Both the position numbers and the translations under genes were made by a program. From a virus, in IMG/VR virus record IMGVR_UViG_3300034198_022040, positions 1-39,116 of that record: 39,116 nt of DNA, one strand, 5' to 3'. The notes under the pieces are model-generated. The model was not told where the DNA came from. It ran no database searches and worked only from the letters and a program-made list of their open reading frames with translations. The first letter of the stretch is position 1. The number at the start of each line of letters is the position of its first letter. This document shows, one piece after another, positions 1,137 through 36,173 of this stretch.

Positions 1137-3755
1137 ATGTCTATGTCAAAAATATTTATACAAATTGCAAGTTACAGAGATAAAGAGTTGCTGCCAACTA
1201 TACGAGATTGTATAGCAAAAGCAAAATACCCAGAAAATTTAGTGTTTGCAGTTGCATGGCAACATGATGAAACTGAGACATTGGATGGTTACGACAAAGA
1301 TCCACGATTCAAAATCATAGACATTCCATACAAGCAAAGTAAGGGAGTTTGTTGGATTCGACACCAATTAAATTTGTTGTATTCTGGTGAAGATTATTGT
1401 TTGCAATTGGATAGTCATCATAGATTTGCTCAAGACTGGGATACACAAGCTATTGGAATGTTGCAAGATTTGTGTGCGGTTGGATACAAAAAGCCAGTAT
1501 TGACGGCGTATTTGTCTTCTTACGAACCAGAGAATGATCCAAAAGGTAGGGTCACAGAGCCTTGGATGATCTGTTTTGATAGGTATTTGCCTGAGGGGCC
1601 AATCTTTCCAACTCCAAGTGTTATACCAGATCACAATACGTTAGAGTTGCCAATTCCAGCACGATTTTTTAGCGGACATTTTGCTTTTGCACATGGATCG
1701 TTTGTAAAAGAAGTGGTGTATGATCCAAATTTGTATTTCCATGGCGAAGAAATCAACATGGCAGTTCGTGCATATACGCACGGATATGATTTGTTTCACC
1801 CTCACAAAGTTATAGCATGGCATTATTACCATCGATCTGGATCTATAAAGCAATGGGATGATGACAAGATTTGGGCAGACCGAAATGCAGCATCACACTT
1901 GCGTACAAGAAAATTGTTTGGTATGGACGGAGAAACCAAAAATATAGATTTTGGCGTATATGATTTTGGTAAAGTAAGAACACTTCAAGACTATGAAAAA
2001 TTTGCGGGTGTGCGATTCAAAGATCGTTCAGTCCAACAATACACATTGGATCAAAAAATTGCTCCTAATCCAGTAATCAGTGATCCAGAAGAATACGAAA
2101 AATCTTTGCTGCACATCTTTAAGTTCTGTATTGATATGCATGATGACAGTGTTCCAGAAAAAGATTATGATGCTTGGATCATTGCGTTCAAAAATGCCGA
2201 TGGAGTTGAAATTGTGCGAGTTGACGCTGGAGAAGCTGAGGTAGCTTCTTACAAAAATTCTTTGGCTGCGGATCGGTGGCATAGAATTTGGCGAGCATTT
2301 CACACAAAAGAAGTGCCAAAGACTTATGTATTTTGGCCACATAGTAAATCCAAGGGATGGATGGAAAAGATTGAGCGGTATATACCATCACCAGTAAAAC
2401 CTATTCCTCGCTCACCAGATCCAGAGAGTTTGTGGAAGCATAGCAAAAAGAATCAAAAGCAAAGAAACGAAAAGGTTGCTTTCAATTCTGACCCAAACAA
2501 GAGAAAAATCTTTGTTCACATTCCTGCTTACCGAGATCCAGAGTTGTTACCAACCATTGAAAGCGCATTGAAAAACGCTGCATACTCTGACCGATTGGTG
2601 TTTGGTGTTTGTCACCAAGTCAACAAAGCTGACAAATTTTCAAAGGATTTGGATAAGTTCAGAACCGATCCTAGATTCAGAATCATTGATATGGATTACA
2701 CCGCAGCAAAAGGGCTTCCTTTTGCACGATACCAAATCAACACTATGTTGCTGAATGAGGAGTATATTTTGCAATTGGACAGCCATCATAGATTTGCCAA
2801 AAATTGGGATTCTACGTTGATTGAGATGCACGATTCATTAAAAGCAGATGGTGTCAAAAAGCCGTTGGTGGCTGGATATTTGCCGTTCTATGATCCATCT
2901 GACGATCCAAACTCTAGAACCAAACAGCCATGGCAGTCAGTCATGTCATGTTTTTATCCACATGGAACTATCTTTATTCGACCAAGCTCGTTTAACAGTT
3001 CTGTGGATTTGACAAAGCCAGTACCAGGAAGATTTTTGTCTGGACATTTTTGCTTTGGTGATAATCATTGGGGAAAAACTATCAAACATGACTCAGATAT
3101 CTTTTTCAGCGGTGAAGAAATCAATCTGACTGTGCGTTCATTTACACATGGATATGACATTTATCATCCAAACAAGGTGGTAATTTGGCATTCTATGGCA
3201 AGAAAAGAACGAGATGGAATTTTGGTTTGGGATGACCAAGCAAAGCGTGGAGAAAATTGGAATGAGTTGCAATCCAAATCCCGAGCAAAAATTCGACAAC
3301 TTCTGCAAACCGAATACAACGGATATGATTTGAGTGGTTATGATTTGGGAACTGAGCGTTCATTGCATGACTATGAGTTGTATGCCGGTATATGCTTCAA
3401 AGAAAAGTCTGTGCAACCATATACTATGGACAATGGAGTTCCTCCAAACCCAAAGATGTCGGAAGAACAGTGGAAAGCTTCGCTTAAAAAGTCATTTTAT
3501 CATCTCGTCAACATTACCAAACAACAATTACCAGGCAACGACTATAGCAGTATTTTGGTTGCGTTTGATGATGATCAAGGTCAAGCAATTTCAGCAAAGC
3601 ATATCACTGGCAAAACTTTGGAGAAATTTTTGCAAGGTAAAGAAAACATTCACTATGAAGAATACTTCCTTACAGATAAATGGCCTGCTAGGGTTGTGTA
3701 TTGGGGAGTGAGCCAAAGCCGTGGTTGGGCAGAACGAGTAGAAATAAAACTATGA
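1137..3755 (+). CDS. Tandemly duplicated GlcNAc-transferase-family (GT60/PF11397-like) glycosyltransferase
   Basis: The 872-residue protein holds two copies of one glycosyltransferase domain. Copy 1 begins KIFIQIASYRD near residue 5 and copy 2 KIFVHIPAYRD near 457. Each has the nucleotide-sugar/metal motif LQLDSHHRF (D92 and D548) and, exactly 111 residues later, a GEEI motif (G203 and G659), followed by the RxxTHGYD and WH signatures. These match the family of Skp1 hydroxyproline GlcNAc-transferase and trypanosome mucin-type O-GlcNAc transferases, which use UDP-GlcNAc. Both copies look catalytically complete. A C-terminal extension of each copy ends in a similar WGVSQSRGW / WPHSKSKGW motif, so the duplication includes an accessory region. 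ATG 1143 is an alternative start. The neighbouring Thr/Ser/Pro-rich fibre is an obvious candidate acceptor, though a host or phage glycan is also possible. Confidence 0.85.
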   Translation: MSMSKIFIQIASYRDKELLPTIRDCIAKAKYPENLVFAVAWQHDETETLDGYDKDPRFKIIDIPYKQSKGVCWIRHQLNLLYSGEDYCLQLDSHHRFAQDWDTQAIGMLQDLCAVGYKKPVLTAYLSSYEPENDPKGRVTEPWMICFDRYLPEGPIFPTPSVIPDHNTLELPIPARFFSGHFAFAHGSFVKEVVYDPNLYFHGEEINMAVRAYTHGYDLFHPHKVIAWHYYHRSGSIKQWDDDKIWADRNAASHLRTRKLFGMDGETKNIDFGVYDFGKVRTLQDYEKFAGVRFKDRSVQQYTLDQKIAPNPVISDPEEYEKSLLHIFKFCIDMHDDSVPEKDYDAWIIAFKNADGVEIVRVDAGEAEVASYKNSLAADRWHRIWRAFHTKEVPKTYVFWPHSKSKGWMEKIERYIPSPVKPIPRSPDPESLWKHSKKNQKQRNEKVAFNSDPNKRKIFVHIPAYRDPELLPTIESALKNAAYSDRLVFGVCHQVNKADKFSKDLDKFRTDPRFRIIDMDYTAAKGLPFARYQINTMLLNEEYILQLDSHHRFAKNWDSTLIEMHDSLKADGVKKPLVAGYLPFYDPSDDPNSRTKQPWQSVMSCFYPHGTIFIRPSSFNSSVDLTKPVPGRFLSGHFCFGDNHWGKTIKHDSDIFFSGEEINLTVRSFTHGYDIYHPNKVVIWHSMARKERDGILVWDDQAKRGENWNELQSKSRAKIRQLLQTEYNGYDLSGYDLGTERSLHDYELYAGICFKEKSVQPYTMDNGVPPNPKMSEEQWKASLKKSFYHLVNITKQQLPGNDYSSILVAFDDDQGQAISAKHITGKTLEKFLQGKENIHYEEYFLTDKWPARVVYWGVSQSRGWAERVEIKL

Positions 3756-3913
3756 CTTTTGATATTAGCAACTTACGTTTTGTTTACTTTACAAATGAGA
3801 CCAATATTCCATTGATGGAATTGACGCTCAAAAACTTTTTCAAATACAACACACTGAAGAATGTGAAAGTAAGCGTCATAAGCAACTTCTATAAAGACAG
3901 TAATCTACCATAA
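3752..3913 (+). pseudogene. Short ORF, possible 5' remnant of a larger glycosyltransferase-like gene
   Basis: The ATG overlaps the preceding stop as ATGA, so it is positioned to be translated. The 53-residue product (MTFDISNLRFVYFTNET...) reads like the first strand and helix of a Rossmann-like GT-A domain: a hydrophobic strand RFVYFTN, a helix LMELTLKNFF, and a second strand VKVSVISN. It then stops at a TAA before any DxD or other catalytic motif. The next 60 bases show no continuation in another frame. I read it as a truncated gene, but a genuine 53-residue protein cannot be excluded. It sits in a cassette where gene turnover is expected. Confidence 0.45.
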
Positions 3914-3918
3914 AACTA

Positions 3919-3947
3919 TTGACAAAATTGATTGACTTTGATAAACT
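3919..3947 (+). promoter_or_regulatory. Possible sigma70-like promoter before the methyltransferase gene
   Basis: A perfect TTGACA lies at 3919-3924, and 17 bases later there is a weak -10 match TAAACT at 3942-3947. The spacing is right and transcription would begin about 20 bases before the ATG at 3976. The -10 is poor and the region is AT-rich, so chance is a real alternative. Confidence 0.3.
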
Positions 3948-3975
3948 ATCTTGAATTTACAACATACATATTATT

Positions 3976-4509
3976 ATGGCACATCAACAACAACGAGACT
4001 ATTGTATCAGCGTAAAAAATCGACACCCAACTCTATTCAAGAATACATCCGTTTTGGATGTTGGTTCTTTGGATATAAATGGATCAAATCATTATCTATT
4101 TGAAGAGAATTATGATTATGTTGGTATTGATATTATTGAGGGCAGAAACGTAAACTATATTGGTAGATCACACACATATCACCGAGAAGAACCATTTGAC
4201 GTGGCGATATCCACAGAGTGTTTTGAGCATGATGAGTTTTGGAAAGAGTCGTTTCAAAACATGTACAACCTATTAAAGCCAGCAGGTTTGTTGATGTTTA
4301 CATGTGCATCCGAAGGTAGAAACGAGCATGGTACGGCACGATGTGCTCCGTGGGATGCTCCTGGCGTTGCTCAGTTGGGTAATTACTATGGAAACTTGAC
4401 CGAAAAGATGTTCAAAGAGAATTTTGACATCGCAAGCATGTTTAGCGAATACGAATTCCAAGAAATTCCTCATATCTGGGACTTGTATTTTTACGGAATC
4501 AAGAAGTAA
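3976..4509 (+). CDS. Class I SAM-dependent methyltransferase (Methyltransf_11 type)
   Basis: The 177-residue product has the SAM-binding motif I VLDVGSLDINGS at about residues 26-37, an acidic residue ending strand 2 (GIDIIEG, D52), a post-motif EPFDVAISTECFEH, and a LLKPAGLLMFTCASEG strand typical of small-molecule methyltransferases. It lies between glycosyltransferase-like genes, so methylation of a sugar residue is the most natural role. The substrate is not visible in the sequence. No strong Shine-Dalgarno precedes the ATG. Near the C-terminus the protein is rich in aromatic residues, as is common when a sugar or nucleotide is bound. Confidence 0.8.
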   Translation: MAHQQQRDYCISVKNRHPTLFKNTSVLDVGSLDINGSNHYLFEENYDYVGIDIIEGRNVNYIGRSHTYHREEPFDVAISTECFEHDEFWKESFQNMYNLLKPAGLLMFTCASEGRNEHGTARCAPWDAPGVAQLGNYYGNLTEKMFKENFDIASMFSEYEFQEIPHIWDLYFYGIKK

Positions 4510-4516
4510 TATCATT

Positions 4517-5530
4517 ATGAAAAAACCTATAGTTACTACGTGGGGTATTGGAGACACTTATCGATCACGCATCAAAAGCAACATCGAAACTTGTCTAAAA
4601 AGTGGGTATGACAATACCATGGATTACGTCATACTCACCGACGTGCCAAGTGATTTTGACGAACTACGTATCACAACAAATAAAATTGTCGATGTAGTCA
4701 ATATTCACGAAGTACGTGAAGAGTATGCGTGGTCAAAAGACATAGAACATATTCCACAAAAACAAGAAACCTACGGTGATGAGTATCGGGCAAATATGAG
4801 CCGAGATAAACAGTTTTCATATTCGCTACATCGGTTTTCTTTGCCTAAAATTGCAGAGCTTGGATACACCAATTTTTTAATGCACGACCCAGATGCCGAC
4901 ATTCGATACGACAAAATCGTAAGCGGCGAGATCACAGAAGAAGAGTTTTGGGAACAATTCAATACTCCTGTTAGATCCATGAAGGGATGCTACAAAGAAG
5001 CTATTCAAGTTAGCTCTGAAAAGTTTGAGTGGGCAAGAGCAGTTGGACTACATCAATCACTGGTGGCATTGCAAACAGCGTCAATATTGATAGAAAAGTT
5101 AAACACAAAGTATAAAACCGATAGATATCCGATTGTTCCACGATTGGAAATTACGGAAGGTCCGTTTAGATACTACAATTTTTCATCAACTTCTGAGCTA
5201 AAAGAGTATTTTAACATTTGGAATGATACTATAAAGCTGAGCCTTTCAGACACATACCTTCGCAGAACTAATTTTTGTGGGGGATATATGTTGTGTGACT
5301 ATATTCCAATTGGTGCTGTGAATCTTTACTATAATATGAAGGTGTTGGATTTTAGCACCAAGTATTATACAATCGATCTGTATTGGACGGATCGGTATTT
5401 TATGCCCCGAGAAGGGGGCTTGCCAGATGGAATGAAATTTGAACCTGGCTCTACACTTGATGATTTCATGGAAAAAAATAAACACATTATTGATGCTTTG
5501 AAAGCACAAGGACGATGGCCAAAACTTTGA
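4517..5530 (+). CDS. GT-A-like glycosyltransferase candidate with DPDAD motif
   Basis: I start it at ATG 4517 (MKKPIVTTWGIGDTY), not at the upstream in-frame ATG 4424 that lies inside the methyltransferase gene; this leaves a 7-base spacer. The 337-residue protein opens with a hydrophobic strand and a GIGDTYRSRI helix, and has FLMHDPDADIRYD (D124, D126, D128), which resembles the metal-binding DxD of nucleotide-sugar transferases. The second half is rich in Tyr, Trp and Phe. I do not recognise a named family. The assignment rests on the DxD pattern and on the surrounding sugar-modification genes. It may instead be a non-catalytic glycan-processing protein. Confidence 0.5.
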   Translation: MKKPIVTTWGIGDTYRSRIKSNIETCLKSGYDNTMDYVILTDVPSDFDELRITTNKIVDVVNIHEVREEYAWSKDIEHIPQKQETYGDEYRANMSRDKQFSYSLHRFSLPKIAELGYTNFLMHDPDADIRYDKIVSGEITEEEFWEQFNTPVRSMKGCYKEAIQVSSEKFEWARAVGLHQSLVALQTASILIEKLNTKYKTDRYPIVPRLEITEGPFRYYNFSSTSELKEYFNIWNDTIKLSLSDTYLRRTNFCGGYMLCDYIPIGAVNLYYNMKVLDFSTKYYTIDLYWTDRYFMPREGGLPDGMKFEPGSTLDDFMEKNKHIIDALKAQGRWPKL

Positions 5531-5539
5531 TATAATACT

Positions 5540-6172
5540 ATGTATACAAACGAAAAAATAACAAGACGTTCAGATCTTGCAAATAACGATAGTCTGTCTT
5601 CTTATTTGGGTTATACGGCACAACAAAATCCAAATGCGTATGAGGCGTTTTACAAATTTATTCAAAACGTCAAACCAAAACGAATTCTTGAAATTGGGAC
5701 TGGATTAGGAGGGTTTTCTATGTTTTTGAAGCATGTGTGTGACGAGCTTCAATTAGATACTACAATCGTTACATACGACGTTAATTCAAGACAAGAATAC
5801 AAAACACTCTTGGACGTGGGAATTGATGTACGTATCGAAAATATTTTTAACGCTGGCTATACACAAGTATACAAACAAGTGTTGGATTATATCCAAGGTG
5901 ATGGTGTAACCTTGGTGTTGTGTGATGGTGGATACAAAATTGGAGAGTTCAACTTGCTTTCAGATCACATCAAAGTTGGTGATCTCATCATGGCTCACGA
6001 TTACGCACCGGATTCAAAGTTCTTTGCAGATGAAGTATACAAAAAACTGTGGAACTGGCACGAGATACAAGACTCCAATATTCAAGAATCCGTGAACCGA
6101 AACAAATTGGTGGCATATAACGCCGATGAGTTTGTTAAAGCTGTATGGGTTTGTAAACAAAAAGTACAATGA
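5540..6172 (+). CDS. Class I SAM-dependent O-methyltransferase, CmcI/rhamnosyl type
   Basis: The 210-residue product has motif I RILEIGTGLGGFSMFL (E51, G53, G55), a strand VTYDVNS ending in an acidic residue, and the strongly characteristic LVLCDGGYKIGEFNLLSD followed by GDLIMAHDY. This arrangement is typical of the CmcI-like and rhamnosyl O-methyltransferase group, whose D and H residues bind a metal. It probably caps a sugar made by the adjacent transferases. The stop overlaps the next gene by ATGA, so the two are translationally coupled. TATAAT preceded by TG lies at 5528-5536 directly before the start; this could be an extended -10, though the RNA would then begin at or after the ATG. Confidence 0.8.
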   Translation: MYTNEKITRRSDLANNDSLSSYLGYTAQQNPNAYEAFYKFIQNVKPKRILEIGTGLGGFSMFLKHVCDELQLDTTIVTYDVNSRQEYKTLLDVGIDVRIENIFNAGYTQVYKQVLDYIQGDGVTLVLCDGGYKIGEFNLLSDHIKVGDLIMAHDYAPDSKFFADEVYKKLWNWHEIQDSNIQESVNRNKLVAYNADEFVKAVWVCKQKVQ

Positions 6173-7860
6173 CAAACGATCTTACAATAGTTACCGGTTT
6201 GTGGAATATCAACAGAATTGGTAGACCATTCGATCACTATATCGAAAATCTAAACAAATTGCTAGATATTGATGCAAATTTGTTTTTGTATCTACCAAAA
6301 GAATTGGAACCTTTGGTGTGGAAAAAACGAACCAAAAAGAATACGTTTGTCAAGATCTATGAATTAAGTGATGTTCAAAACATGTACAAACCATTCTGGG
6401 ACAAAACTCAAAAATTGAGAACCGATCCAGCATGGATAAATAAGGCAGGTTGGCTTGCAGCTTCACCTCAGGCTTCACAAGAATGGTACAATCCAATTGT
6501 GCAATCCAAGATGTTTTTGTTGAATGACGTTACCATTTGGAATCCTTTCAATACCAAACACTTTATGTGGTTGGATGCTGGTATCACCAACACTGTATAC
6601 GAAAAATACTTTACAGACAACCGAGTACTGGATAAGATTGCACCATATCTAGAACAATTCTTGTTCTTGAGCTATCCATATGAAGCCAACTTGGAGATCC
6701 ACGGATTTGATTTTGATGCTATCAATAGATACAGTGGTAAGAAGGTAACTTACGTTTGTAGAGGCGGATTGTTCGGGGGCACTAAAGAGTCTATCAATCA
6801 AGCCAATGCCACCTATTATTCTCTTTTAGATAGAACACTCAACGATGGCTACATGGGTACAGAAGAAAGTGTGTTTACCATCATGTCATATTTGGAACCT
6901 GAGAAGTATAGACGCTACTCTCTGGATTCAAATGGTTTGATTGTGAAGTTTGTACAAGCACTATTGGACAACAAAGTGACGCTTGAACCAATCCCACAAG
7001 ATGTCAATATATACACTCCAAGAAAGCACGTTGATCCAGACAAGCTGAGGGTGTCTTTGTATATGCTAACGTTCAACTTTCCTCAACAAGTTGAACACAC
7101 TATACAAACTTGGCTAAAACATCCAAAGTGGATCACAAATACCCGCAACATTTTGATTGACAACTCAACTGACGAAACTGCAAGAACGGTCAATGCTGAA
7201 TTGTGCAAAAAATACAATTTTGAACATATCATCAACAACAAAAATTTGGGTATCAACGGTGGTAGGTTTCAAGTGGCAGAACATTTTCAAAACTCTGATA
7301 GTGACTATTATGTGTTTTTGGAAGATGATATGGGAATTCACCCACCCGAAAAAAACGTGTGTCGCAATGGATTTAGCACCTATATTCCAAACTTGTATGA
7401 CAAAGTATTAAAAATCATCGGCGGCGATGTTGATGTTGATTTTTTGAAATTTTCTTATACCGAGGTATACATGGACAACAATATCCAAGTTTCTTGGTAT
7501 AACGTACCCAAGGTGGTGCGAGCGGAGGTTTGGCCTCATTATACTAAATTGCCTGTGTCTGGTTTGGACCCAAATTGCCCAAGAACAAAGTTTGACACAA
7601 TAGAGGTTGTGGATGGATTAAGTTATATAAAGGGCGATGTATATTATGCAAACTGGCCAATGATTGTGGGTAAAAGTGGCAATAAAAAGATGTTTTTGGA
7701 TACTACATGGGCATATCCATATGAACAAACTTGGATGAGTCACATGTTCCAAGAAACAAAAAAAGGTAACTTGAAACCGGCTGTTCTACTAGCAAGTCCT
7801 ATCCATCATAACAGAATTGCTTATTATAAACCAGAAGAAAGAAAAGAAAATGCTGGTTGA
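6169..7860 (+). CDS. Two-domain protein: HtrL/YibB-like domain fused to GT2-like glycosyltransferase
   Basis: Residues 1 to about 290 match the HtrL/YibB (WlaTC) pattern: LTIVTGLWNINRIGR at the N-terminus, then NPIVQSKMFLL and HFMWLDAGITN, the latter containing the D-x-G core. From about residue 297 a second domain begins with RVSLYMLTFNFPQQVEHTI and continues with LIDNSTDETA, NKNLGINGGRF and YVFLEDDMG (E385-D386-D387), the order of motifs in GT2-family transferases. Both halves are therefore nucleotide-sugar enzyme-like. HtrL/YibB proteins occur in bacterial surface polysaccharide loci. The gene is the last of the cassette and starts by a 4-base overlap with the methyltransferase. The biochemical product cannot be predicted. 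Confidence 0.75.
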   Translation: MTNDLTIVTGLWNINRIGRPFDHYIENLNKLLDIDANLFLYLPKELEPLVWKKRTKKNTFVKIYELSDVQNMYKPFWDKTQKLRTDPAWINKAGWLAASPQASQEWYNPIVQSKMFLLNDVTIWNPFNTKHFMWLDAGITNTVYEKYFTDNRVLDKIAPYLEQFLFLSYPYEANLEIHGFDFDAINRYSGKKVTYVCRGGLFGGTKESINQANATYYSLLDRTLNDGYMGTEESVFTIMSYLEPEKYRRYSLDSNGLIVKFVQALLDNKVTLEPIPQDVNIYTPRKHVDPDKLRVSLYMLTFNFPQQVEHTIQTWLKHPKWITNTRNILIDNSTDETARTVNAELCKKYNFEHIINNKNLGINGGRFQVAEHFQNSDSDYYVFLEDDMGIHPPEKNVCRNGFSTYIPNLYDKVLKIIGGDVDVDFLKFSYTEVYMDNNIQVSWYNVPKVVRAEVWPHYTKLPVSGLDPNCPRTKFDTIEVVDGLSYIKGDVYYANWPMIVGKSGNKKMFLDTTWAYPYEQTWMSHMFQETKKGNLKPAVLLASPIHHNRIAYYKPEERKENAG

Positions 7861-7899: not shown

Positions 7900-7907
7900 T
7901 ATTTATA
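7900..7907 (+). promoter_or_regulatory. TATTTATA octamer before the propeller gene
   Basis: The octamer lies 4 bases before ATG 7912, with AGGA overlapping its end. Its reverse complement is the T4 late-promoter core TATAAATA. It belongs to a set of similarly placed octamers on both strands. Confidence 0.4.
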
Positions 7908-11576: not shown

Positions 11577-12491
11577 ATGGTGGATACATCGGTTATAGAA
11601 ACTCTAGCAAGACTTTTCAAGCATAAGCCTCACATTCAAAAAGGTGGTGAGGAAGTTATGTTTTTTTGTCCTAAGTGTAACCACTACAAACGCAAGCTCA
11701 ATGTTAATACACTGAGTGGATATTATCACTGTTGGGTCTGTAATTTCAGTGGCAAAAGCTTCAAAAGCTTGCTCAATAAAATTCATGCGTCTGGTGAGTT
11801 CTATCCTATCTTGTGCAAGATCAAAGCACCAAAACGCACAGACGAGCACTTTGAAAAACGATTGGAGTTGCCTCCAGAGTTTAAGCCATTGTACAAACAG
11901 ACCAATTCTGTGATTCAAAAGCATGTGTTGAGTTATTGTTTCAAGCGTCATTTGACTGCACATGATATTATTCGATACAACATCGGATATTGTGAAGAAG
12001 GTACGTTTGCAAATCGTGTGATTGTGCCATCATACTCTGACACTGGAGATTTGAATTTTTATTGTGGTCGTGATGTTTTCAACAGCAAGATGAAATATCG
12101 TTTGTGTGATTCCACAAAGGATATTGTTGGATTTGAAATGATCACAGATTTTGCACAACCATTGACTTTGGTGGAAGGTGTGTTTGATGCATTTTCTGTA
12201 AAATACAACGCCATTCCGTTGTTTGGAAAAACACTATCCAACAAATTGAAACTCAAATTGATTTCCAACAGACCACCGAGAGTCAATGTGTTGCTGGACA
12301 ATGATGCGTTGAGTAGCAGTCTGGAGATATGCAAATTTTTGTTGGAAAATCAAATACCTACACATTTGGTTTTGTTGAACGGTAAAGATCCCAATGATAT
12401 TGGGCATGAAAAAACTTGGCAAGCCATTGAATCTAGTGATAGAATGGATGAAAGCAAACTTTTTAAGTTGAAGGTAAAATACAAGCTATGA
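11577..12491 (+). CDS. DNA primase, zinc-finger plus Toprim (T4 gp61-like role)
   Basis: I choose ATG 11577, 9 bases after AGGG, over the in-frame GTG 11556, which has no ribosome-binding site. The 304-residue protein has a zinc-binding CPKC...CWVC arrangement (C31, C34, C52, C55). It is followed by a Toprim domain: LTLVEGVFDA with E200, VNVLLDNDAL with D241 and D243, and a final KDPNDIG motif. This is the layout of DnaG-type and T4 gp61-type primases, which make RNA primers for the lagging strand. A gp41-like helicase partner is not in the window. The stop overlaps the next start by ATGA, coupling it to the recombination nuclease. Confidence 0.85.
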   Translation: MVDTSVIETLARLFKHKPHIQKGGEEVMFFCPKCNHYKRKLNVNTLSGYYHCWVCNFSGKSFKSLLNKIHASGEFYPILCKIKAPKRTDEHFEKRLELPPEFKPLYKQTNSVIQKHVLSYCFKRHLTAHDIIRYNIGYCEEGTFANRVIVPSYSDTGDLNFYCGRDVFNSKMKYRLCDSTKDIVGFEMITDFAQPLTLVEGVFDAFSVKYNAIPLFGKTLSNKLKLKLISNRPPRVNVLLDNDALSSSLEICKFLLENQIPTHLVLLNGKDPNDIGHEKTWQAIESSDRMDESKLFKLKVKYKL

Positions 12492-15400
12492 TCGTACTAA
12501 AAAACACAGAGACGAAGATCGACAATGTAATTCAGGTTTCTGATATTCACATGCGGTTGACAAAACGCCATGATGAGTATGAATCTGTCTTTAACAAATT
12601 TTATGATGTACTGGACAAGCTCGCAAAAAACACTCGTTTGGTTTGTGTTATTACCGGAGACTTGTTTCACAACAAAGTTGATTTGTCACCAGAATGCGTT
12701 AACTTGGGTGCGCAATTTTTGAAGAATTGTGCTGACCGAGTTCCCACAATTTTGATTGCTGGTAATCATGATGCGTTGCTCAACAACAAAGCACGATTGG
12801 ACAGTCTTACTCCAATTGTACGTGGATTGAATCACAAGAACTTGTATTATCTAAAGGATACCGAGGTTTACCGATACGAAAACATTTTGTTCAATCATTT
12901 TGGTGTGTTTGATGAACCAGATAAGTACATCAACTATGACACCATTCCTTCAAAGTATAGGTTGGAAACTGATCATCACATTGGACTGTTTCATGGACCT
13001 GTCAACGAAGCCGTCACAGATGTGGGATACACTGTCAGCAATCGTGCAATTACAAACGAAATGTTTGATGGACACCATATTGTGATGTTGGGTGACATTC
13101 ACAAACATCAAGTATTGCAAGAATACAATGACAATGATGGTAAGCCAGTTATTGTGTATGCTGGATCGATGATTCAACAAAACCATGGTGAAGAACTCAA
13201 GGGTCATGGATTTTTGTTGTGGGATCTAAAGCGTAGACTGTTCAAACATTACGAATTGGAAAACGATTATGGTTTCTATACTGTGGAAATTAATAAGGGT
13301 AAGTTGATTACCGACATTTCCAATATACCTAAGAAAGCCCGTGTTCGTACCAAGTGTTTTGAAACGATTCCTTCTCAAGTAAAAGAAGTAATCAACGAAA
13401 TCAAGACTAAGTGCGAGATTCTTGAATCAACCTTTATTCGTGTTGATGATTTTCAGAACCAAGCAACCAACGCTGGTCAAGTGTTGGATATTCACAATAT
13501 TTTTGATGTTGATTATCAAAACAAGTTGATTACAGATACTTTGACCGCAAAGAAGGTAGAAAAGCCTTTGTTGGACAAAGTTCTTGAACTCAATAAGTTG
13601 ACCAATACGCAGATTCCCAAAGATAAAACTCCAAAGAATATTCGATGGAAACCCAAGACCTTTGAGTTTGACAACATGTTTAGTTATGGCGAAGGCAACG
13701 TAATTGACTTTACCAAACTCAAGGGAACTATTGGTTTGTTTGCTCCAAATGCTAGTGGTAAGTCTAGTATCATGGATGCTTTGGCATTTTGTGTATTCGA
13801 TAAGTTTAGTAAAGGTTACAAAGCTGTTCACGTCATGAATACCCAAAAAATGGGATTCAAGTGTAAGTTCAATTTTGAAATCAGCGGGGTGGATTATTTT
13901 ATTGAACGCAAAGGAACTGCTGACAAGAAGGGTAATGTAAAAGTCGAAGTCAAATTCTACAAAATGGAGAATGACATGGAAGTGCCTTTGAACGGTGAAG
14001 CACGTCGCAGCACCAACGACATCATCCGAGATTATCTTGGAACATATGATGATTTTATTTTGACAGTGTTGAGCATTCAAAATAGCAAGACTGGATCTTT
14101 TGTTGATCTTGGTAATACTGAGCGCAAGGACTTGCTGTGTCAGTTTATGGGTCTTACTGTATTTGATCAGTTGTACAACATTGCTAACGAGCAGTTCAAA
14201 GAGATCAATACTTTGTTGAAGAATTACAGCAAAGATGAACTTGTGGCTTCACTGGAAAGTATTTCTCACTCTATCAAGACCAATGAAAACTCTATAGTTG
14301 AATTGAACAATTTTGTGGGGGAATTGGAATCTAAAAAGGATGATTACAACAAAAAATTGTTGGAGTTGAGCAATGATATTGTCAAGACCGAGACATTTGC
14401 GTTTGATATTACCAAGCTAGAATCCGAAAAGATTGACTATTCCAACAAGATTGAAATAGCACAATCTGATATTGTAGCTCAAAAGGAAAAGTTGGCGACG
14501 ATTGAGAATAGTCTAACAAACTTCAGTTCTTCACTAAATCTATACACTGATATTGAGTCTAAATACGAACAATATCAAAGCGACAAACAATCTGCACAAT
14601 CAACTCAAACTGAAATTGATAAGTTGAAGGTTGTGATTCGCAATAAGATTGACAAGCTCAAAAAGCTTGAGGAACACAAGTACGATCCAAACTGCAATTA
14701 TTGTGTAAACAACGTCTTTGTAAAAGACGCTATTGCCACAAAGCTGGAACTGGAAGAACAAAAGTCTCATGCTGCACAAGTGGTTGTTGAGTTTCAAAAC
14801 ATCAAAAAGACAGTTTCAGATTATGGTGATATTGAGCAGCAGTATAAGGCATATCAAAAGATGTTGACCGACAAAGCTACTTTTGAGAAAAACAAGGCTG
14901 CTATTAACAACATCATTTTGAGACTGGAAAACAATTTGATTGAACTCAAAAACAAGTTGAAGCTGGTTTCTGACAATATTGACGTGTTTTACAAAAACAA
15001 AGACATTATTGAAAACAACAACAAACTGTTGTCTGAGATTGCTGATGTTAAAGATTTTATCAAATCAGTTGAACTTGATATTAAGTCTGCCAACACAGAT
15101 TTGTTCAAAGCGTCTACTCAAAAGGGTAAACTGGAACTGGAGCAAAAGACCACAGAAGCTCAACTCAAGAAGTTGTTGGAGCTTGAAGCTTCTTATGAAG
15201 CCTACAAGCACTATACCGCTGTTGTGAGCCGTGATGGTATTCCTTACGATGTTATTACAAAAACTCTACCCGAGATCGAAAAGGAAGTTAACAATATTCT
15301 TCATCAAGTGGTGGAGTTTACTGTTACGCTACAAACCGACGGCAAAAACATCAACAGCAACATTGTTTATGATGACAAGTGTTGGCCTTTGGAAATGGGT

Positions 15401-15670
15401 AGTGGTATGGAAAAGTTTATTAGTGGACTTGCAATTCGTGTTGCACTGATCAATATCAGCAATCTACCTAGACCAAATATCATTTGTATTGACGAAGGAT
15501 TTGGTTGTGCAGACAGTGATCATTTGGGTCAAATGGGTGCATTGTTTACCTATTTGAAGCATCAGTTTGAATTTATCTGGATTATCAGTCATTTGGATCA
15601 AATGCGAGACATGGTTGACATGCATTTGGAGATCAAGAAAGAAAATGGGTATAGCAAGATCACTTTTTAA
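12488..15670 (+). CDS. gp47-gp46: Single-chain Mre11-Rad50 (gp47-gp46/SbcD-SbcC) fusion nuclease
   Basis: One uninterrupted 1060-residue frame joins both subunits of the recombination nuclease. Residues 1 to about 380 are the Mre11/SbcD/gp47 phosphoesterase: SDIHM (D19, H21), GDLFH (57-61), AGNHD (91-95), FHG (168-170) and GDIHKH (202-207). From about residue 390 the Rad50/SbcC/gp46 ATPase follows: Walker A APNASGKS (419-426), long heptad-rich coiled coils, a zinc hook CNYC (736-739), the ABC-signature-like GSGMEKFISG, Walker B IICIDEGFG (D1002, E1003) and the H-loop ISHLD. In T4 the two are separate genes (339 and 560 residues). The complex resects DNA ends for recombination-dependent replication. 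No stop, frameshift or internal start that would separate the parts is evident. Confidence 0.92.
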   Translation: MIVLKNTETKIDNVIQVSDIHMRLTKRHDEYESVFNKFYDVLDKLAKNTRLVCVITGDLFHNKVDLSPECVNLGAQFLKNCADRVPTILIAGNHDALLNNKARLDSLTPIVRGLNHKNLYYLKDTEVYRYENILFNHFGVFDEPDKYINYDTIPSKYRLETDHHIGLFHGPVNEAVTDVGYTVSNRAITNEMFDGHHIVMLGDIHKHQVLQEYNDNDGKPVIVYAGSMIQQNHGEELKGHGFLLWDLKRRLFKHYELENDYGFYTVEINKGKLITDISNIPKKARVRTKCFETIPSQVKEVINEIKTKCEILESTFIRVDDFQNQATNAGQVLDIHNIFDVDYQNKLITDTLTAKKVEKPLLDKVLELNKLTNTQIPKDKTPKNIRWKPKTFEFDNMFSYGEGNVIDFTKLKGTIGLFAPNASGKSSIMDALAFCVFDKFSKGYKAVHVMNTQKMGFKCKFNFEISGVDYFIERKGTADKKGNVKVEVKFYKMENDMEVPLNGEARRSTNDIIRDYLGTYDDFILTVLSIQNSKTGSFVDLGNTERKDLLCQFMGLTVFDQLYNIANEQFKEINTLLKNYSKDELVASLESISHSIKTNENSIVELNNFVGELESKKDDYNKKLLELSNDIVKTETFAFDITKLESEKIDYSNKIEIAQSDIVAQKEKLATIENSLTNFSSSLNLYTDIESKYEQYQSDKQSAQSTQTEIDKLKVVIRNKIDKLKKLEEHKYDPNCNYCVNNVFVKDAIATKLELEEQKSHAAQVVVEFQNIKKTVSDYGDIEQQYKAYQKMLTDKATFEKNKAAINNIILRLENNLIELKNKLKLVSDNIDVFYKNKDIIENNNKLLSEIADVKDFIKSVELDIKSANTDLFKASTQKGKLELEQKTTEAQLKKLLELEASYEAYKHYTAVVSRDGIPYDVITKTLPEIEKEVNNILHQVVEFTVTLQTDGKNINSNIVYDDKCWPLEMGSGMEKFISGLAIRVALINISNLPRPNIICIDEGFGCADSDHLGQMGALFTYLKHQFEFIWIISHLDQMRDMVDMHLEIKKENGYSKITF

Positions 15671-30007: not shown

Positions 30008-30015
30008 TATAAATA
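30008..30015 (-). promoter_or_regulatory. TATTTATA octamer (minus strand) before the DUF3008-like gene
   Basis: On the minus strand the octamer precedes ATG 30002 by 5 bases, matching the arrangement seen for plus-strand genes. On the plus strand the same bases read TATAAATA, so it could also serve rightward late transcription toward the scaffold gene. Confidence 0.45.
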
Positions 30016-31325: not shown

Positions 31326-33068
31326 ATGGATATTAAAAATCTATTGACAAACAACCAAAACCCACAGGCTAAGCTGATGGCTGAAACCCGTGGTCTTCAA
31401 CAAAAGTGGGAGAAGACAGGTCTGCTCGAAAGTTGCCAAGGCATCGAACGTGCTCACATGTCAATCCTCTTGGAAAACCAAGCAAACCAACTTTTGACTG
31501 AAGCAACCTCAACCGGTACTAGTGCAAACAGTGAACAATGGGCAGGCGTTGCTCTTCCATTGGTTCGCCGTGTGTTCGCAGAAATCGCTGCTAAGGAGTT
31601 CGTCTCGGTTCAACCAATGAACCTCCCAAGCGGTCTGATCTTCTATCTAGACTTCAAGTATGGTTCTACCAACCATCTTGGCCACACCGTTGGCGAAAGC
31701 TTGTTCGGTGGTACTCAAAAGAAGCTTGGTTCTACCAACGCAGCAGTAAACGGTCTTTACGGTCAAGGTCGCTATGCGTACTCTGAACGTACCGTTAGTA
31801 GCTCCAACTTCGCAGCAGGCTATGCAACCGTAGCAACTGCAAGCTGGAACGATCTACAATTTGCTGATCAATTCAGCTCTTCTGTTGATCCTGTAACTGG
31901 TGACGTTGCTGGTGTGTTTAAGCTTACCTACAACTTGGATGACAACACCCAAGCTGGCGCAAGCGCAAGCACCGGTAACGCATGGAATGTTGACCTCAAT
32001 GCAGTTCGTTCTTTCCAAGCACAACGTGGTGGAACCGCATTGACCATCCTCAACACCTATGCAACCGCAGTGAACACTGGTAGCTTGGCAAACCCATACT
32101 ATCAAATCAATTTGTTCACCACAACCACTGGTTTGGCAGCAAGCCAAAGCACCTTGCGTTTGAATTACACAATTCAACCTTCGGACAACCTCCGTGGTGA
32201 CTTCGAAGCAGGCAAGACTGCTGGTGAAGGTTCTGGTACTTCAAACAACCAACCTTACCAAAGCATCGATACCGACATCGGTATTCCAGAAGTCAACCTC
32301 GATCTTAAGAGCGAACCAATCGTTGCTAAGACTCGTAAGTTGAAGGCAGTCTGGACCCCAGAATTGGCTCAAGACTTGAACGCATACCACTCTATTGATG
32401 CAGAAGCAGAATTGACTGCATTGTTGAGTGAATATGTTTCGATGGAAATCGACCTCGAAATCCTCGACATGTTGAACGAGTCCGTAACCGGTGTCACCAC
32501 CGAAGCTTGGAGTGCTGCAATTGGTACTGAGTTCACCAAGAGCATCAATTCAACCACCGACGTAGCAACCTTCACTCGTAATGCAAACAGTTCACCAAAC
32601 CGTACTGCATACGTGAAGAGCACTTGGTATCAAACTCTTGGTAACAAGATCCAAAAGGTCTCTAACAAGATTCACCAATTGACTCTACGTGGTGGTGCAA
32701 ACTTCTTGGTCTGTTCGCCAGACGTAGCAACTATCTTGGAATCTATTCCAGGTTACGTTGTGAACACTGACGGTGATCAAGCAAAGTTCGCAATGGGTGT
32801 GAGCCGTGTTGGTAGCTTCGCAAGTCGCTTCCAAGTCTACAAGAACCCATACATGACCGATAACGTGATCTTGGTTGGTTTCCGTGGAAACAACTTCCTC
32901 GAAACCGGTGCTGTGTATGCTCCATACATCCCACTCATCCAAACTCCATTGGTCTATGATCCAGTGAACTTCACTCCACGCCGTGGTGTGATGACCCGCT
33001 ACGCTAAGAAGGTAGTCCGCCCTGAGTTCTACGGCAAGGTCTTGATTGCAGACCTCGACACTGTGTAA
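31326..33068 (+). CDS. gp23: Major capsid protein precursor (T4 gp23-like)
   Basis: The 580-residue protein has the gp23 pattern: a helical N-terminal propeptide, then WAGVALPLVRRVFAEIAAKEFVSVQPMNLPSGLIFYLD, parallel to T4's MVRR...VQPMN region. LLTEATSTG places a probable protease cut after E59, giving a mature protein of about 521 residues. Further conserved parts are AELTALLSEYVSMEIDLEIL, GANFLVCSPDVATILE and FTPRRGVMTRYAKKVVRPEFYGKVLIADL near the end. A TAGGAA site precedes the ATG. The gene uses C-ending codons (aac, ttc, acc, gtc) far more than its neighbours, in line with very high expression. A terminator follows directly. Confidence 0.95.
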   Translation: MDIKNLLTNNQNPQAKLMAETRGLQQKWEKTGLLESCQGIERAHMSILLENQANQLLTEATSTGTSANSEQWAGVALPLVRRVFAEIAAKEFVSVQPMNLPSGLIFYLDFKYGSTNHLGHTVGESLFGGTQKKLGSTNAAVNGLYGQGRYAYSERTVSSSNFAAGYATVATASWNDLQFADQFSSSVDPVTGDVAGVFKLTYNLDDNTQAGASASTGNAWNVDLNAVRSFQAQRGGTALTILNTYATAVNTGSLANPYYQINLFTTTTGLAASQSTLRLNYTIQPSDNLRGDFEAGKTAGEGSGTSNNQPYQSIDTDIGIPEVNLDLKSEPIVAKTRKLKAVWTPELAQDLNAYHSIDAEAELTALLSEYVSMEIDLEILDMLNESVTGVTTEAWSAAIGTEFTKSINSTTDVATFTRNANSSPNRTAYVKSTWYQTLGNKIQKVSNKIHQLTLRGGANFLVCSPDVATILESIPGYVVNTDGDQAKFAMGVSRVGSFASRFQVYKNPYMTDNVILVGFRGNNFLETGAVYAPYIPLIQTPLVYDPVNFTPRRGVMTRYAKKVVRPEFYGKVLIADLDTV

Positions 33069-34143: not shown

Positions 34144-34406
34144 TGAATCGTCCCTACAAAGAAACCGCATTGGGCAACAATCAGTACATACGAGAGTTTA
34201 GTGCTGATGCATACACCGATGAGCTAGAGTGGCACTTGGACAAAGAGGACCGCATTGTAGAAGTTATAGAGGATGGTGGCTGGCAGTTTCAACTAGACAA
34301 TGAACTGCCAGTGCCTCTTGTCAACAAAGTGTTTGTGCCTAAAGAAACTTACCACCGAGTATTGAAAGGCAACGGTAATCTTGTGATCAAACTGACCAAG
34401 CTTTAG
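34143..34406 (+). CDS. Small cupin-like conserved phage protein
   Basis: The 87-residue protein has IREFSADAYTDELEWHLDKEDRIVEVIEDGGWQFQLDNELPVPL and ends with VFVPKETYHRVLKGNGNLVIKL, an arrangement of short strands with a conserved WH and YHR that resembles a minimal cupin barrel. Proteins with this pattern are frequent in T4-like phages but their function is unknown. The start overlaps the preceding stop (TAATG), so translation is coupled. Its stop overlaps that of the convergent minus-strand gene by 3 bases. Confidence 0.6.
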   Translation: MNRPYKETALGNNQYIREFSADAYTDELEWHLDKEDRIVEVIEDGGWQFQLDNELPVPLVNKVFVPKETYHRVLKGNGNLVIKLTKL

Positions 34407-35185
34407 TTTGCAAAGAAATCGTTGGTAGATTCAACAGTGTGTTCAGTGACCACTTCTTTGAATCCCGTACCTTTGATGTATGGCAACACTTTGTGTTTCA
34501 AAGATTTGGTTAGACGTTTGTTTTCGATCTTACCACAAATAAACTTGACGTAACGGTGCTTGCCGCTTTCACGCTTGCGCCAGAACGTCTTACCAATGCG
34601 TTCTTTTAGCTTTTCAACATTGTGTGTCTTCCAGCGGCTATAAACGCTTCTGCTGTGAATCCATTTGTAGTTGGGAGGTCCATCCAGACTGACGCTGTAA
34701 TTGGGCATCAGTGCAATGTCTACGTAGTTGTCGCCTTGATACAGAAAACCAGTGGCTTGATAGATGGTGCCACGATGACCTTCTTCACTATCTGCATAGG
34801 TCAGAATGCATTTGACCTCGGGATAGTCTGTGTTTAGACGACGAAAGCTTTCTGCCAAGCAATAGCTTTCAATGTTTTTTCCGTATCCGTCAGCAACCCA
34901 AACTCGGGTCAATTCAAACACGTTTTTGTTTTCCAGCAACGGACTTATGCTTTTGCTGGCACTGCGTCCCACAGCATTACCATATACAATAACACCAATT
35001 AGTTTGGTATTGTATCCACCAAAGAAAGTGCTTTCAACGAGTTCTTTGTAATACACGCCATACGCCACAGTGCAACTTGTCCACTTGTGGGTGTAATGGT
35101 TCTTTTCGATCATTTGTCGAGCTATCTGTTTGGAGATAGGTTCGATATAGACCAAAGATGTATCACAATAACTGGTTTCAGCCAT
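34403..35185 (-). CDS. GNAT-fold, Mom-like DNA-modification candidate
   Basis: The 260-residue protein has an acetyltransferase-type core: YIEPISKQIARQMIEKNHYTHKW, LIGVIVYGNAVGRSASKSI, FELTRVWVADGYGKNIESYCL, ILTYADSEEGHRGTIYQATGFLYQG. The last two motifs are characteristic of the Mom family from phage Mu, which converts adenine in DNA to a carbamoylmethyl-type derivative and protects against restriction. The C-terminal third (WRKRESGKHRYVKFICG) is basic. It is on the minus strand behind the lipoprotein gene. Its stop overlaps the convergent plus-strand gene. Alternative: another GNAT enzyme acting on protein or tRNA. Confidence 0.6.
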   Translation of the reverse strand: MAETSYCDTSLVYIEPISKQIARQMIEKNHYTHKWTSCTVAYGVYYKELVESTFFGGYNTKLIGVIVYGNAVGRSASKSISPLLENKNVFELTRVWVADGYGKNIESYCLAESFRRLNTDYPEVKCILTYADSEEGHRGTIYQATGFLYQGDNYVDIALMPNYSVSLDGPPNYKWIHSRSVYSRWKTHNVEKLKERIGKTFWRKRESGKHRYVKFICGKIENKRLTKSLKHKVLPYIKGTGFKEVVTEHTVESTNDFFAN

Positions 35186-35222
35186 GCAGCTATGATAACA
35201 TTAGATTGATGTTGGTCAACCT

Positions 35223-36173
35223 TTATTTTTTCCAACGCAGCATTGTCTTGAGTTCTTTGATTACGTCTTTATCGGATTGGTCAAGTTCTCGGTCAAAATG
35301 AGACAGTACCTCATCAAGCAACACTGGTTTGCCTTCTTTTGCCAATACTTGAATTTCTTCAATATTGTCAACAAGCTTTGCCAATGTATCTTTGTATTTT
35401 TGCACTTCAACAGATGGTGAAAAACCACTGAAACTGAGTGATTTAGGTGCCAAACCACGAACAATTTGGATTATGGATGCACCAATGATGTTAAATACTG
35501 CAAATGCACCAGCAGCAATAGGATTGCTTGCTGCAAGTAGTCGTAGTACCAAAAAGGCTACGCTGAATATCAATATACCTACGATGCAGGTTGTTACAAA
35601 ACGCTTCAAACCATAAAATACTGCGCCCAGACCAAACCATTTATTGACGTTATCAACAACTACTTTGTTGTTGTCGTTTTCTTCAGCTTGCTTTTTTGCG
35701 ACTTTTGTTAGATCATCAATACGTTTTTGCAACGCAGCCTTTAGATCTTCTTTTTCTTTTTGAATAGTGGCAATCTCCGCATCTTTTGCGGTCAAAAGCT
35801 TGGCACCTTTTTCTCGTTCTTTCTTGACTTCGCTGTTCAAAAGGTCTACAGTTAACTTGATTCTGTTCATTTCATCAACGTCTGGTGATCCAGCAATGCT
35901 GATGATTCTGTTGTTCAACTGTTTGGCAGTTTCAATTTCATTGACTTTGTTGGTCAATGGAACACGGTCTAGGCTGTACCCTACACCAAAACTTAAACCT
36001 GATACTTGTGTTAGTTTTTCTTCGGTATTTTTGGCAATATTTTCTTTGGCTTTTTCAACTGCCTCAGTTTTGGTTGCCATCTTTTTTTGGTTGTCATTTT
36101 TGTTATCTGGAATGATTGTACCGCAACCGTTCAACAACAACCCAATCAACAATATTGATAAAAACTTCTTCAT
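35223..36173 (-). CDS. Phage-encoded lipoprotein with coiled coil and two membrane segments
   Basis: The N-terminus MKKFLSILLIGLLLNGCG is a lipoprotein signal with lipobox LNGC (C17 would be lipidated). After a polar region (20-100), residues 105-170 are strongly charged and heptad-like, probably a coiled coil. Two hydrophobic segments follow, about 192-214 and 218-240, and then a helical C-terminal 75 residues. The family is not recognised. An envelope-spanning role in superinfection exclusion or lysis control is plausible, but this is inference. The lipobox implies a host with a conventional lipoprotein pathway, most simply Gram-negative. AAGGAG lies about 14 bases before the start. It is co-directional with the Mom-like gene 37 bases downstream. 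Confidence 0.65.
   Translation of the reverse strand: MKKFLSILLIGLLLNGCGTIIPDNKNDNQKKMATKTEAVEKAKENIAKNTEEKLTQVSGLSFGVGYSLDRVPLTNKVNEIETAKQLNNRIISIAGSPDVDEMNRIKLTVDLLNSEVKKEREKGAKLLTAKDAEIATIQKEKEDLKAALQKRIDDLTKVAKKQAEENDNNKVVVDNVNKWFGLGAVFYGLKRFVTTCIVGILIFSVAFLVLRLLAASNPIAAGAFAVFNIIGASIIQIVRGLAPKSLSFSGFSPSVEVQKYKDTLAKLVDNIEEIQVLAKEGKPVLLDEVLSHFDRELDQSDKDVIKELKTMLRWKK

Follow-up and report, generated by a model that had tools for sequence, protein, structure and literature searches.

The gene at positions 34403..35185 on the minus strand of the window, by which we mean the whole 39-kb (39,116-nucleotide) stretch of viral DNA analyzed here, very probably encodes a Mom enzyme. Mom adds a bulky group to adenines of phage DNA, which bacterial restriction enzymes then cut poorly, and most work on it concerns a single temperate phage. 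We consider it highly probable that the window encodes a standalone Mom, that its gene is a regular and selected component of a phage clade and that a sigma-70-type promoter of its own would give rise to a leaderless mRNA.

The mom open reading frame opens with ATG and encodes 260 amino acids, at the position and on the strand given in a preliminary description that had proposed a Mom-like DNA-modification protein. The Pfam family Mom (PF25680) matches the protein at 144.4 bits (cut-off 27.1; E=4.8e-42) and covers profile positions 3-200 of 202, and PHROG 1384, 'Mom-like DNA modification protein', matches it at E=3e-42. No family other than Mom was found in Pfam or PHROG at E values up to 1, and the only PDB sequence match within the same limit is Mom of phage Mu (8bv8, E=8.3e-12). 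Two peptides that had been read as a Mom/GNAT pattern, LTRVWVADGYGKN (residues 92-104, window 34874-34912) and LTYADSEEGHRGTIYQATGF (residues 128-147, window 34745-34804), are both located in this frame, in stretches that can be aligned with Mu Mom. The frame is single-domain, with no nuclease domain joined to Mom. We thus assign the protein with high confidence to the Mom family as a new member.

The predicted structure leads to the same family. An AlphaFold2 model that was built from 55 aligned sequences of the window and IMG/VR (mean pLDDT 87.9) adopts a GNAT fold that is nearest to Mu Mom. VIA-align superimposes the model on Mu Mom (8bv8_A) with a Z score of 20.0 and an rmsd of 3.2 over 173 residues, compared with 12.4 for the next GNAT chain, and Foldseek ranks the Mu Mom structure first (E=5.9e-13), ahead of the next molecule at 2.8e-4. 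Any closer resemblance to a GNAT of different function, which would have spoken against the preliminary assignment, was sought in these sequence and structure comparisons and not found. In the model, the first beta strand starts approximately 10 residues past the ATG, and the matching stretch aligns with Mu Mom; a much later start of mom is therefore unlikely.

The active-site residues of Mu Mom are retained. Roles of H48, R101, D139 and Y149 in Mu Mom were reportedly described by Karambelkar et al. in 2020. The corresponding residues His30 (codon 35096..35098, minus strand, as for the following codons), Arg94 (34904..34906) and Tyr142 (34760..34762), along with Tyr31, which aligns with Mu Y49, are invariant in 96/96 distinct sequences, and Asp132 (34790..34792; Mu D139) is found in 91/96. 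Ser107 (34865..34867; 95/96) aligns with the serine that is mutated in the inactive Mu crystal mutant S124A, as named in the 8bv8 entry title (241-aa numbering). The 96 sequences derive from 186 open reading frames, with identical proteins counted once (some contigs were fetched by two scans); 17 loci without an ATG near the aligned start or without a stop, a locus identical to the window (L081) and four fusion loci (L092-L095) were left out. The five exceptions at Asp132 are Roseobacter phage CRP-902, which has Glu, and four relatives (L151, L153, L154 and L159) in which Asn replaces Asp132 together with Lys for Gln143. As Asp132 is the catalytic position, these four relatives possibly have another chemistry or are inactive. 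mom is under purifying selection, with a median dN/dS of 0.078 and a highest value of 0.165 for any pair (430 pairs with pS of 0.1-0.6, from 46 distinct sequences). It is extremely unlikely that mom is dying or inactive, an alternative to which the continued avoidance of palindromes would lend itself and which the retained active site and these low dN/dS values oppose.

Within a common clade of uncultured T4-like phages, mom is a regular gene under selection. The window, an uncultured virus record, matches the tail sheath, large terminase, portal, head maturation protease and major head protein families, in agreement with the T4-like origin that had been suggested for it. The major capsid (gp23-type) gene is located at 31326..33068 on the plus strand, and two genes separate it from mom. 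Its product is closest to those of the uncultured phage LR756508 (51.6%), Microcystis phage Mel-JY01 (50.6%) and Flavobacterium phage immuto (50.0%); no Mom match was found across the whole records of Mel-JY01 and immuto. We compared 80 capsid loci, of which 39 have a capsid identity of at least 72% (the clade) and 41 have 64-71% (the sister clade). Encoded on the other strand, mom lies downstream of the capsid gene in 32 of the 39 clade loci, and the contigs of the other seven stop within 1,317 bp of the capsid gene. mom follows the capsid gene in 0/41 sister-clade loci in the stretch examined, 19 of which have more than 4 kb downstream. One locus of the sister set (L222) stops at the capsid gene, and its other genes resemble those of a clade member. 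In whole-contig searches, full-length Mom was detected in 16/16 and then 5/5 clade contigs, and no standalone Mom was detected in 11 sister contigs, which are fragments, so that a gene missing from them may still be present in the phage. The distances of Mom correlate with those of the capsid protein (Spearman coefficient 0.52 over 33 loci, the pairs of which are not independent).

Relatives of the window protein occur among named phages as well. They are encoded by 236 of 50,697 named phage records, with the Mom-like protein of Polaribacter phage P12002L (NC_028924; 41.4%) as the closest. In P12002L, a 49-kb phage, the gene adjoins one for a DNA methyltransferase, whereas the window mom is found by a T4-type capsid gene. 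A scan of IMG/VR yielded 289 relatives, 80 of which were retained (75-83% identical), and a second scan with a family alignment yielded at least 579, with 80 retained and identities down to 42%. Among bacterial genomes, a single relative (43%) came from a metagenome-assembled bacterium, on one of its contigs. A further Mom-family gene, distinct from the window-type mom, is 99-100% identical in nine contigs and is present in two clade contigs that carry the window-type mom too (loci L098, L099 and L272-L280).

The lone 260-residue window protein also differs from Mom domains that are embedded in longer frames. Mom-domain matches in LR756508 and in three of the 11 sister contigs are located in frames of 510-929 aa; those of the sister contigs are shorter matches inside frames of 519-929 aa. 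In LR756508, a 484-kb phage, four such matches (L092-L095) occur in frames of 510-797 aa, two of them above the family cut-off, and their long N-terminal regions appear by eye to be zinc-finger-like and nuclease-like. Nuclease-Mom fusions are reported for jumbo phages in an excerpt of PMC7824862, and they have the Mom domain in common with the window protein. The long Mom-domain frames of the sister contigs resemble the fusions described there.

How is mom transcribed in this clade? A gap of 37 bp separates mom from the upstream gene and contains TTGACC (35214..35219, minus strand), a 16-bp spacer, TATCAT (35192..35197, minus strand) and 6 bp before the ATG. This layout of -35 box, -10 box and ATG is repeated in relatives whose leaders otherwise differ. 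Dereplication of 130 mom leaders at 80% identity over 50 nt left 21, among which T is found at -12 (counted from the A of the ATG) in 95%, A at -11 in 86% and T at -7 in 90%, and an A-rich stretch lies at approximately -37 to -44. The pattern TANNNT occupies -12 to -7 in 18/21 mom leaders and in only 1/94 leaders of eleven neighbor genes from the same contigs, three of which (p334, cca and p168) contributed one or two leaders each (Fisher P=5e-17). A -35 box with at least 4/6 matches accompanies this -10 box in 15/21 leaders; three leaders have no -10 box at this position, and six do not have the combination. Thus, mom in this clade seems to have its own sigma-70-type promoter that touches the ATG.

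The position of the -10 box fits a transcription start at the A of the ATG, and host RNA polymerase should therefore produce a leaderless mom mRNA. A Shine-Dalgarno core is present in one of the 21 mom leaders and is also missing in 61/94 control leaders, and its scarcity is weakly consistent with a leaderless message. A structured 5' end like that of Mu was considered and rejected: the first 60 nt of the mom message are no more folded than shuffled sequences in any of the eight sequences tried. Leaderless transcription as a phage-wide practice was considered and rejected: of 338 distinct strong promoter matches in clade loci (at least 10/12, spacer 16-17), the 15 that end 6 nt ahead of an ORF start are without exception those of mom. 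When a box at -12 to -7 was combined with a -35 box of at least 5/6, mom was the only ORF of at least 40 aa selected in a 132-kb clade contig. In a 99-kb contig (G001), the same combination selected mom, a 75-aa ORF (position 394) and an ATG inside the portal gene; in the window, it selected an ATG inside the portal gene besides mom. Neither leaderless mom nor the mom of this clade was the subject of any paper retrieved from the open-licence literature.

The upstream gene (35223..36173, minus strand) encodes a protein with a lipoprotein-like N-terminus, and its arrangement with mom on the same strand across the 37-bp gap raises the possibility that a real Mom is expressed mainly by read-through, as part of one late unit, with the -10/-35 match little used. 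This possibility draws further support from the conserved TATTTAT of the lipoprotein-like gene, which is located 11-15 nt before its start in 11/11 dereplicated leaders. However, read-through does not account for a promoter match that keeps a constant distance to the ATG in otherwise differing leaders, nor for a -10 box placement that is nearly confined to mom relative to the controls. We regard predominant read-through as rather unlikely and favor transcription of mom from its own promoter.

Upstream of the lipoprotein-mom pair, a T4-type late promoter, the motif of which we take to be TATAAATA, was sought and rejected as a candidate; TATTTAT was found instead on the coding strand, a motif that corresponds to the T4 late promoter core in reverse complement. 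TATTTAT precedes the lipoprotein-like gene in every dereplicated leader and mom in 0/21, which places mom outside the TATTTAT class. Thus, mom appears to be under its own host-type control, with adjoining genes under another motif. In the window, TATTTAT is found on the coding strand 7-62 nt ahead of ten gene starts, at 7900, 10486, 15724, 19850, 25884, 28544, 33126 and 36207 on the plus strand and at 30015 and 36184 on the minus strand. Thirteen of its 17 copies are located in the 1,461 bases of the window outside the gene list, and two genes retain it upstream in 11/11 and 10/10 dereplicated leaders. TATTTAT possibly represents a promoter or leader element specific to the phage.

The predicted control of the clade mom departs from that of Mu. 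In the Mu com-mom cassette, a Com-type zinc-finger frame overlaps the mom start, and GATC (Dam) sites cluster upstream of mom. We examined as much as 250 nt before each of 21 clade mom genes, including that of the window: no CxxC pair that would indicate a Com-like frame was found in the forward frames, and the same 21 leaders contain only 0-2 GATC sites (none in the window). According to excerpts of PMC4461284, Mu mom is a late gene that requires the activator C and is kept in check because its untimely or excess expression leads to cell death; an excerpt of PMC6483171 adds that Com, a zinc-finger protein acting on a hairpin, is needed for its translation. Mu mom therefore needs C and Com, whereas the clade mom has a sigma-70-type promoter match at its ATG and no detected Com-like frame. 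From the position statistics, the regulation of mom in this clade looks new relative to Mu.

We propose that host RNA polymerase transcribes the clade mom from the gene's own sigma-70-type promoter, so near the ATG that the mRNA would be leaderless, and that Mom is possibly produced as soon as infection begins, with no need for a phage activator or for a translation factor of the Com type. The enzyme very likely binds acyl-CoA in its GNAT fold and would attach a methylcarbamoyl-type group to adenines in the phage DNA, which host restriction enzymes would then cut poorly. We give roughly even chances to the further proposal that leaderless host-polymerase mRNA supplies Mom at the start of infection and thereby reverses the late, Com-gated logic of Mu. 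If this proposal holds, early production of Mom would not have to be harmful, and the DNA would be protected from replication onward instead of only shortly before packaging. A clade mom with a host-type promoter and a predicted leaderless start would constitute a second, differently controlled Mom system, in which the timing of Mom and the harm of early Mom are directly testable. The clade also supplies diverged Mom enzymes for work on the chemistry.

What does the window enzyme modify? The window protein and Mu Mom have the fold, the active-site residues and the single-domain design in common and differ in sequence (approximately 27% identity), in an insertion near residues 45-60 and in a longer C-terminus of the window protein. 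Given this low identity, the target sequence and the chemical group may differ from those of Mu. Adenine modification is likely, and virion DNA would be expected to contain a modified adenine.

The restriction palindromes of the clade bear on protection. We compared 15 Mom-clade contigs (234 kb), picked by capsid identity and a length of at least 8 kb, a few of which may end before mom, with 18 sister contigs (252 kb). The observed-to-expected ratio of 4-mer palindromes is 0.964 in the Mom clade versus 0.931 in the sister clade (P=0.038, uncorrected), and that of 6-mer palindromes is 0.866 versus 0.850 (P=0.18), an ambiguous signal as to relief from restriction. Overall avoidance is near the sister-clade level, and this does not fit full restriction protection. 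Since palindromes are still avoided in the Mom clade, protection may be partial or directed against other enzymes, or something else may cause the avoidance. Four 6-mers are more strongly depleted in the Mom clade (contigs L179-L215) than in the sister clade. On both strands of the Mom-clade contigs, GTCGAC occurs 0 times (33 expected), GACGTC 0 times (24 expected), GTGCAC twice (36 expected) and CGATCG twice (29 expected), versus 12 (33 expected), 4 (25 expected), 16 (52 expected) and 8 (19 expected), respectively, in the sister clade. These depletions suggest host enzymes that target the four sequences.

The continued avoidance of palindromes would also suit a Mom-fold acyltransferase that acts on a non-adenine target, such as another base, RNA or protein, and both the versatility of GNATs noted in an excerpt of PMC8072286 and the modest identity to Mu Mom leave room for such an enzyme. 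However, the retention of the Mu active-site residues and the clear lead of Mu Mom among the structural matches to the model argue against a different substrate, and we consider it improbable. Adenine remains the favored target.

Two further regions of the window were observed beside the mom locus. The stretch 1137-7860 contains genes for an 872-aa protein, in which a phage glycosyltransferase domain occurs twice, and for a SAM-dependent methyltransferase, along with three more genes that match no PHROG. At 12488-15670, SbcD-like and SbcC-like halves, corresponding to the functions of T4 gp47 and gp46, are joined in one frame of 1060 aa.
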